Source: an uncultured Alphaproteobacteria bacterium (lineage in GTDB: Bacteria; Pseudomonadota; Alphaproteobacteria; UBA8366; JADFVY01). Taken from it: a stretch of 33,743 bases of DNA. The position numbers were made by a program, and so were the translations under genes. Numbering within the stretch: the first letter of the stretch is position 1; each line of letters starts with the position of its first letter. The stretch spans positions 1 through 33,743 of the forward strand of contig CAMYNJ010000073.1 of NCBI GenBank assembly GCA_947259795.1. Direction: 5' to 3'. Positions 18,392 through 20,343 of the stretch are shown one piece after another. The notes beneath the pieces were generated by a model. It was not told the origin of the DNA, searched no databases, and saw only the letters and a list, made by a program, of their open reading frames with translations.

Positions 18392-18868
18392 ATGAAGTCC
18401 AGCCGATCCATATACGCTGTAATTCTTTCCGTTCTCCTGTTGCTTGCCGGGTTTTCCGCCCAGGCGCAGGAAATCACCGGCATCGCCGAGGTGCGGTCGG
18501 GGAATGAAATTGCCCTGAACGGAACCGTCGTCAGGCTTTTCGGTCTCGAAGCGCCGGCCCCGGACGAGCGGTGCGATCTGACCGAAGGGCGATACCGCTG
18601 CGGCATCGTGGCCTGGGCCGAGCTGGTCAAGCTCGCCGACGGGCGCGACCTGTCATGCGATATCGAGTCGCGAACCGGCGACGGACTGCCGGTCGCCACA
18701 TGTTATCTGGGCGAGCGCGATATAAACGAAGCGCTGGTGCGCAGCGGCTGGGCCGAGGCGCGGGCCGATGTCGAGCGCTATCAGGTCGACCAGGCCGAGG
18801 CGCGGCGCGCAAGGCGCGGGCTGTGGGCGGAACGAATCAGGCCGCCCGATCGCAGGCAGGCGCCGTGA
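18392..18868 (+). CDS. thermonuclease (SNase-like) family secreted protein
   Basis: Start MKSSRSIYAVILSVLLLLAGFSAQAQ (signal peptide); EVRSGNEIALNGTVVRLFGLEAPAPDERC...VATCYLGERDINEALVRSGWAEA...YQVDQAEARRARRGLWA. Confidence 0.82.
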   Translation: MKSSRSIYAVILSVLLLLAGFSAQAQEITGIAEVRSGNEIALNGTVVRLFGLEAPAPDERCDLTEGRYRCGIVAWAELVKLADGRDLSCDIESRTGDGLPVATCYLGERDINEALVRSGWAEARADVERYQVDQAEARRARRGLWAERIRPPDRRQAP

Positions 18869-19022
18869 ATTTGCGGACTGGTCATAATCTCGTTTAACCG
18901 ACAGGTTGCAGAACGCGGATATTGCAATCCGCAACCGTCGGATTCGCATCCTGCAATGGGAGTTCCAACCCATGACAAGGGGCCTGGTGGTTGGCCGCGC
19001 CGGAAACCCCCGATAATTCAAC

Positions 19023-19094
19023 AAAGAAAAGGCCCCGGCGTCGGATTTCATCAATCAAGCGCCGGGGCCAAGTTGGCATAAGGAAGGGTTGCAC
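19023..19094 (-). ncRNA. putative sigma-54-dependent small RNA, copy 1 (~72 nt)
   Basis: Predicted transcript GTGCAACCCTTCCTTATGCCAACTTGGCCCCGGCGCTTGATTGATGAAATCCGACGCCGGGGCCTTTTCTTT; -24/-12 element correctly placed upstream, 10-bp terminator stem (19031..19040 / 19060..19069) with U-tract; 5' block identical to copy 2. Confidence 0.75.
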
Positions 19095-19104
19095 CATTAA
19101 ATTA

Positions 19105-19120
19105 AGCAATTAGCGTGCCA
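19105..19120 (-). promoter_or_regulatory. sigma-54 (-24/-12) promoter, copy 1
   Basis: Minus-strand TGGCACG-CTAA-TTGCT: full match to TGGCACG-N4-TTGCW; predicted +1 near 19094. Confidence 0.8.
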
Positions 19121-19177
19121 ACATGATCTTGACAGCCAATGCGTGTACTAAGGCGTCTTCCTCCATCTCGGGGTCAG

Positions 19178-19235
19178 AAAAAAGGCCCCGATGCACAAGG
19201 CGTCGGGGCCAAAGTTGGCATAAGGAAGGGTTGCA
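19178..19235 (-). ncRNA. putative sigma-54-dependent small RNA, copy 2 (~58 nt)
   Basis: Predicted transcript TGCAACCCTTCCTTATGCCAACTTTGGCCCCGACGCCTTGTGCATCGGGGCCTTTTTT; 8-bp terminator stem GGCCCCGA/TCGGGGCC plus six U. Confidence 0.75.
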
Positions 19236-19245
19236 ATTTCATATA

Positions 19246-19261
19246 AGCACATTTCGTGCCA
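19246..19261 (-). promoter_or_regulatory. sigma-54 (-24/-12) promoter, copy 2
   Basis: Minus-strand TGGCACG-AAAT-GTGCT: one mismatch to TGGCACG-N4-TTGCW, GG/GC spacing preserved; predicted +1 near 19235. Confidence 0.75.
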
Positions 19262-19285
19262 AAATGTTAAAGTGCGCGCGAAAAC

Positions 19286-19978
19286 GTGATGGACGCGATC
19301 GTGATGCAGTTGTCCCGCCAATCTCGCAGTTTCTACTCATGGCCCGCCGCCATCGCGGTGGCGGCGGGCCTCGCTTTGGGCGTCCCCGGCTGGCAGATCG
19401 ACCCCCATGTCATGGCGGCGATGGGAACGGTTCCGCGGCATGAATTCGTGCCGGACGAACTCCGCCCACTCGCATACCTGGACATGCCGCTCCCGGTGGG
19501 CTGGGAGCAGAACATAGCGCAGCCCTACCTGGTTGCCCTGATGACGCATCTCGCCGGGATCGAGACCGGCGATGTCGTTTTCGAGACCGGCACGGGTGCC
19601 GGCTATCACGCGGCCGTCCTGTCGCTGCTGGCGGCCAGGGTCGTCAGCGTCGAGATCGTCTCGCCGCTGGCGCTCAGGGCCTCGGCGAAACTCAAGGCGC
19701 TGAACTACGACAATGTCGAGGTGATGGCGTCCGACGGCTATTACGGTGCGCCGGGTAAGGGGCCGTTCGACGCCATGATCGTAAAGGAAGCGTTGGACCA
19801 TGTGCCGCCGCCGCTGCTGGCGCAATTGAAGCCCGGCGGCCGGCTGATTCTGCCGCTGGGTCCGCTGGAGGGCCCGCAGTTCCTTACCGTGGTCGAGAAA
19901 TTGTCGGATGGCCGTACCCGCGGCACGCGCATCCTGCCCGTGATCTTCACGCCGCTCCAGGGCGGCGAGCGAATCTAG
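19286..19978 (+). CDS. protein-L-isoaspartate O-methyltransferase family protein
   Basis: 230 aa (ATG at 19304 also possible); AMGTVPRHEFVPDELRPLAYLDMPLPVGWEQNIAQPYLVALMTHLA, VVFETGTGAGYHAAVLSLLA; hydrophobic N-terminal segment. Confidence 0.85.
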   Translation: MMDAIVMQLSRQSRSFYSWPAAIAVAAGLALGVPGWQIDPHVMAAMGTVPRHEFVPDELRPLAYLDMPLPVGWEQNIAQPYLVALMTHLAGIETGDVVFETGTGAGYHAAVLSLLAARVVSVEIVSPLALRASAKLKALNYDNVEVMASDGYYGAPGKGPFDAMIVKEALDHVPPPLLAQLKPGGRLILPLGPLEGPQFLTVVEKLSDGRTRGTRILPVIFTPLQGGERI

Positions 19979-20088: not shown

Positions 20089-20343
20089 TCAGTGTATCGA
20101 CACCGAGCCCTGCTCGAAGTCGCTGCCGTTTACCGAAACCTGGGTTGCCGCCCAGTCCATGGCTTCCGAGAGATTGTCGCGGCCGACCTCGTCGGCGATG
20201 ATGTCCACGAACTCGCGTAGCGCAGCCTCGAAATTTTCGGCGTGCAAGCTCCGCCCGTGTGCCTTGAGGAGTTTTACGCAGGCCGTACCGTGCACAATCC
20301 ACAATGCGGCCATCCGTGCGTTGTTGTTTTCCTGTCCAATCAC
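20089..20343 (-). CDS. hypothetical protein, 84 aa
   Basis: MIGQENNNARMAALWIVHGTACVKLLKAHGRSLHAENFEAALREFVDIIADEVG...; plausible helical protein with a terminator downstream; no family recognised. Confidence 0.6.
   Translation of the reverse strand: MIGQENNNARMAALWIVHGTACVKLLKAHGRSLHAENFEAALREFVDIIADEVGRDNLSEAMDWAATQVSVNGSDFEQGSVSIH

Follow-up and report, generated by a model that had tools for sequence, protein, structure and literature searches.

What are the two similar units that follow one another on the minus strand at this locus, what might switch them on, and on what might their products act? They lie in a window of 33,743 nt (the whole stretch of DNA that we analysed) from an uncultured Alphaproteobacteria bacterium (UBA8366; JADFVY01; assembly GCA_947259795.1, contig CAMYNJ010000073.1), whose genome is referred to here as G000. 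Units a (19261-19178) and b (19120-19025) are arranged in tandem and are predicted to be of sRNA type: in each, a -24/-12 element is followed by the same 24-mer and this by an intrinsic terminator. A preliminary description of this DNA had claimed two minus-strand -24/-12 elements, the same 24-mer after each promoter and a separate hairpin with a U-tract in each unit, and we find all three at the positions given below.

19246-19261, minus strand: putative sigma-54 -24/-12 promoter of unit a, TGGCACGAAATGTGCT, kept in 5/5 genomes
19178-19235, minus strand: predicted sRNA a, ~58 nt, 89 bits with covariance model R1
19235-19212, minus strand: 24-mer of sRNA a, TGCAACCCTTCCTTATGCCAACTT, forming its 5' block
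Ending at 19178, minus strand: terminator hairpin of sRNA a, GGCCCCGA/TCGGGGCC, then a U-tract (U6 to 19178)
19105-19120, minus strand: putative sigma-54 -24/-12 promoter of unit b, TGGCACGCTAATTGCT, kept in 5/5 genomes
19025-19094, minus strand: predicted sRNA b, ~69 nt, 99.9 bits with model R1
19093-19070, minus strand: 24-mer of sRNA b, TGCAACCCTTCCTTATGCCAACTT, the same as in a, forming its 5' block
Ending at 19025, minus strand: terminator hairpin of sRNA b, which is longer, GGCCCCGGCG/CGCCGGGGCC, then a U-tract to 19025

The promoter pattern TGGCAYN6TGCW matches the 33.7-kb window twice, at these two promoters and nowhere else, against 0.28 matches expected, and two or more matches arose in 3 of 100 shuffles of the window. 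The two predicted RNAs have folding z-scores of -4.6 and -3.3, and in both predicted folds an unstructured head is followed by the terminator. Even with 3 mismatches allowed, the 24-mer has only two copies in the 3.04-Mb assembly (none for a reversed control), and thus it is no dispersed repeat. The 5' block contains an ATG, and comparison of genomes revealed neither conserved reading frames nor a conserved peptide; as the frames are not kept between genomes, we rejected a small-peptide reading of the block.

The same pair, with exactly two units in each case, is found in four relatives of one family (G002, G004, G005 and G006), all of them MAGs (e.g. CP070634.1). Across these five genomes a 21-nt block, TGCAACCCTTCCTTATGCCAA, is invariant in 10 of 10 copies, as is the TGGCA...TGC of the promoter, whereas identity is 51% over what else can be aligned of the intergenic DNA. 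Covariation is seen in the terminator stem, where in four of ten pairs both partners have been altered in one sequence or more. RNA lengths are specific to the copy (57-59 nt for a and 68-70 nt for b), the short hairpin always belonging to copy a and the long one to copy b, showing that the duplication predates the split of the five genomes. As the preliminary description had proposed, the block is thus held by selection and not by recent copying. The locus is flanked in synteny by SNase, MscS-like and kinase genes in 4/4 relatives, so inheritance is vertical; next to the promoters, only some relatives have the methyltransferase gene. We also noted a conserved 84-aa protein without a Pfam match, encoded at 20089-20343 (minus strand) of the window. 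In G002 and G004 its gene is the immediate upstream neighbour of the sRNA pair, and in the window a PCMT-like gene sits between the two, in the same position as in G005. The pair has no match in G001 and G003, which belong to the same genus. The contig of G003 stops just before the locus and G001 is without an assembled MscS-like orthologue, so that the missing pair is compatible with assembly gaps and absence from these genomes is not shown.

Two near-identical blocks with GC-rich hairpins could be a REP-like or other mobile repeat whose resemblance to promoters is accidental, the outcome that the preliminary description had named as fatal to its proposal. The genome-wide search refutes this reading, to which we give next to no credence: each genome has two copies, always at one syntenic locus, and promoters are kept in every copy. 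A second possibility is that the 24-mer serves mainly as a protein's DNA-binding site in the initially transcribed region, with short transcripts as by-products. The conservation is seen at the DNA level and the block begins TGCAAC, resembling half of the LuxO-type dyad described below, but the block is strand-asymmetric and begins at the predicted +1, and in 10/10 copies a covarying intrinsic terminator comes after it, as sRNA genes are built; we consider a DNA site very improbable. Collectively, these comparisons support tandem sRNA genes, as predicted from sequence, each with a sigma-54-type promoter and a terminator of its own, and both with a 5' block under selection.

Neither unit matched Rfam release 15 at the gathering threshold. 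A permissive Rfam scan returned matches at chance level only, none of them to Qrr; the match to MmgR (RF00519), at 13 bits against a gathering threshold of 41, was among these. Covariance model R1, run over the order, returned weak matches of 23-28 bits that were mainly terminator look-alikes without promoter and block, and we set these aside. A class-wide pattern search of 385 genomes found only the window's own genome, the other carriers lying outside that sample. A scan of 84,980 species recovered four family members and two further pattern matches, which we discarded as probable chance hits, being unrelated sequence without the promoter-block-terminator anatomy. The family was not found in viral contigs. 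Judged by sequence, this RNA family is new; it resembles Qrr in its predicted working and is not a member by sequence.

The preliminary description had hinted at nitrogen control. This hint, and NtrC with it, is not supported: searching 18701-19700 for TGCACC-N5-GGTGCA with up to 3 mismatches gave one weak match, on both strands, and no convincing NtrC site lies nearby. Conserved LuxO-type dyads suggest a LuxO-like activator instead. These two dyads are located downstream of unit b (18956-18922), outside the segment that the preliminary description covered:

18944-18956, minus strand: LuxO-type dyad 1, TTGCAGGATGCGA, at +137 from the start of unit b
18922-18934, minus strand: LuxO-type dyad 2, TTGCGGATTGCAA, at +159, 22 bp from dyad 1

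For LuxO, the literature gives the site TTGCAW3TGCAA, with ttgcaaaatgcaa at V. cholerae qrr1 (PMC11443567, PMC10328515, PMC10162802). The dyads fit this consensus and not an NtrC site, and from the motif resemblance we predict that they are bound by a LuxO-like protein. The location of the pair, +137 to +164 from the start of b, is conserved in 5/5 genomes, with a spacing of 22-23 bp in those keeping both dyads (TTGCAAAATGCAA in G005 and TTGCAAGATGCAA in G006). Dyad 2 is clear in four genomes and degraded in G004, which counts against a LuxO reading. TTGCAN3TGCAA is exact at the locus in G005 and G006 and carries mismatches in the other genomes; genome-wide, exact matches number 4 in G005 (3.86 Mb) and 2 in G006, one in each being at the sRNA locus. 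No other plausible promoter was found near the dyads.

Among at least four clear enhancer-binding proteins in G000, one resembles LuxO much more strongly than NtrC, scoring 631 bits with NCBIfam LuxO and 416 with NtrC. Its domains are REC, AAA+ with GAFTGA and a Fis-type HTH; the G000 copy of the gene is cut by the contig end before the HTH, and the relatives' copies are complete. The full-length proteins of the relatives, with the C-terminal helix-turn-helix present, reach 680-697 bits, so that across all LuxO-like proteins (631-697 bits for LuxO, 416-434 for NtrC) LuxO is the best model by more than 200 bits. Against the LuxO structure 5EP0 the LuxO-like protein scores 512 bits, the next non-LuxO chain giving 331. 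Two observations count against the LuxO reading: the equivalog cut-off of NCBIfam NF041946 (800 bits) is not reached by any of these proteins, and luxO, present in 6/7 genomes of the family, was not found in G002 (81% complete). The luxO gene is unlinked to the sRNA locus. Beside it, in opposite orientation, a PAS-REC-HPt protein is encoded, which could be the phosphodonor of the LuxO-like protein.

The sRNAs may be real and yet have another enhancer-binding protein as their activator (NtrC, NtrX or the HydG/ZraR-like protein of contig C162), with the dyads serving something else. Such proteins are available in the genome, the dyads lie downstream of the units, and in V. fischeri the sites of LuxO may also be used by SypG (PMC10162802). 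Against this stand the match of the dyads to the LuxO consensus, their position kept in five genomes, the lack of another plausible promoter nearby for them to serve, and the up to 3 mismatches in the sole NtrC-like match near the locus. We regard a different activator as unlikely, if worth keeping in view.

In f4, a neighbouring family of the same order, several genera have LuxO-type dyads ~100-140 bp ahead of luxO, an arrangement that is consistent with autoregulation and lends support to the motif. At four of these loci (L084, L085, L087 and L088) we observed TTGCATTTTGCAA conserved before luxO, ahead of a plausible -10. In G014, G017 and G038, LuxO-type dyads also lie upstream of a different structured RNA near tadA (L126:3003-3330, L127:3424-3725 and L124:2957-3277; ~125-150 nt, single copy). 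This RNA comes with a -24-like element and has three hairpins, the last of them with a C-rich loop (GCCCCUUCCCCCCA / GACCCUCCCCACCCUCA; C-rich segment CCCUUCC/CCCUCCCC); its fold z-score is -6.6 in G014, and no Rfam match was found for it. As its -12 is non-canonical (TTGGA/TTGTA), we treat it as a lead and not as a result. It shares LuxO-type dyads, a -24-like element and a C-rich segment with the twin sRNAs, but is single-copy, has three hairpins, carries its dyads upstream and its C-rich segment in the last loop, and has no evident sequence homology to them. Double sites linked to HxlR in G017 and G038 were rejected as LuxO targets and taken as the HxlR regulator's own sites. Elsewhere, a sigma-54-like TGGCATGGTAATTGCT lies ~50 bp from TTGCAGGATGCAA in G006 (L133:3132-3196), possibly a further LuxO-linked promoter, and in G015 (L129:2920-2961) TGGCGCGAGGGTTGCA shares bases with a TTGCACGATGCAA dyad, and after it comes a short hairpin resembling a terminator.

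If the twin RNAs pair with mRNAs, then targets may be recognizable by complementarity to the block. A search for near-complete complements of the block gave no conserved target. A second search, with a G:U-tolerant 17-mer and at most 2 mismatches in seven genomes, gave no conserved start-region target and match counts not above a reversed control; inspection covered 60 of ~84 non-self sites and those returned as loci. The upstream regions of luxO have no strong complementarity to the block, which leaves luxO a weak candidate target. In G000, the ribosome-binding region of coq7 (L168:700-740; GGCATAAGGAGGGCATG) is strongly complementary to the block, a match in the SD region that did not recur in other genomes at the threshold used. 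That no conserved target of strong complementarity emerged counts against a base-pairing LuxO circuit, and would fit a sponge or a protein-titrating RNA of the CsrA/RsmY type. However, the GGA motif is absent from both predicted RNAs, and base pairing agrees better with a 5' block that is conserved, rich in C and U and unstructured. The RNAs may yet act as a sponge for another sRNA; taken as a whole, we consider titration in place of mRNA pairing distinctly unlikely.

We thus favour, at a probability of roughly two in three, a reading in which the locus encodes two sibling base-pairing sRNAs, transcribed by sigma-54 polymerase under a LuxO-like activator and Qrr-like in working without being homologous to Qrr. 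The LuxO-like response regulator (REC-AAA+-Fis-type HTH) would probably be fed by the neighbouring PAS-REC-HPt phosphorelay protein. Once phosphorylated, it would bind the two phased dyads, reach the sigma-54 RNA polymerase of either promoter through a DNA loop and activate both. Enhancer action from downstream is possible in principle, if unusual in nature. Each transcript would open with the same unstructured block, UGCAACCCUUCCUUAUGCCAAC, and end at its own intrinsic terminator, leaving a U-tail available to Hfq. With an anti-Shine-Dalgarno-like CCCUUCCUU inside it, the block would pair with mRNAs, most likely at ribosome-binding sites, the predicted pairing segment being CCCUUCCUUAUGCC. 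Having two siblings would serve to set dose or response, as Qrr1-5 do in Vibrio. The promoters, invariant block, covarying terminators, conserved dyads and LuxO-like protein are legible in the genome itself; transcription, LuxO binding, activation from downstream, base pairing, Hfq and the signal are what we infer.

The LuxO-sigma-54-Qrr wiring is known from Vibrionaceae. In the literature we searched, mostly without subscription papers, no description of it was found outside that family, including in Alphaproteobacteria; that other bacteria have LuxO homologues had been noted in 2004 (PMC524169). More broadly, and only tentatively, as we see it as slightly more apt to fail than to hold, Rhodospirillales-related alphaproteobacteria may have a complete LuxO-sigma-54-sRNA phosphorelay, with an HPt donor beside luxO, dyads acting from downstream and an RNA output that has an origin separate from Qrr and was exchanged for another one or more times between families. 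On that view the LuxO-sRNA wiring would predate the Qrr RNAs themselves or be the more convergent of the two. If true, a non-homologous RNA output under a LuxO-like activator would mean that activator and enhancer persist as the RNA is replaced. The promoters, the dyads and the invariant 21-nt seed are directly testable.

NrsZ/CrcZ and GlmY/GlmZ are sigma-54-dependent sRNAs. They share this dependence, predicted here, with the twin sRNAs, but their activators differ; Rfam scans gave no homology between them and the twins, which have no convincing NtrC site and no CsrA GGA. The alphaproteobacterial siblings Sis/alphaR8 MmgR and AbcR are, like the twin sRNAs, multicopy with C-rich anti-SD-like seeds. 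AlphaR8 and Qrr have been compared (PMC12559287), and SisA-D in Caulobacter, unlike the twins, have no common promoter motif (PMC12559287). From Vibrio Qrr the twin RNAs differ in being shorter (58-69 nt), with an unstructured 5' block and no Rfam sequence match, and their genes in standing in tandem at one locus, unlinked to luxO, in Alphaproteobacteria. Their dyads lie downstream, whereas those of Vibrio qrr genes lie upstream, which counts against the LuxO reading. Nevertheless, with Qrr1-5 and their LuxO/sigma-54 control the twins share several siblings, sigma-54 promoters, LuxO-type dyads, a LuxO-like protein in the genome and intrinsic terminators, and the conservation of the pair beside LuxO-type sites is suggestive of a Qrr-like circuit that was assembled independently, a long way from Vibrio.
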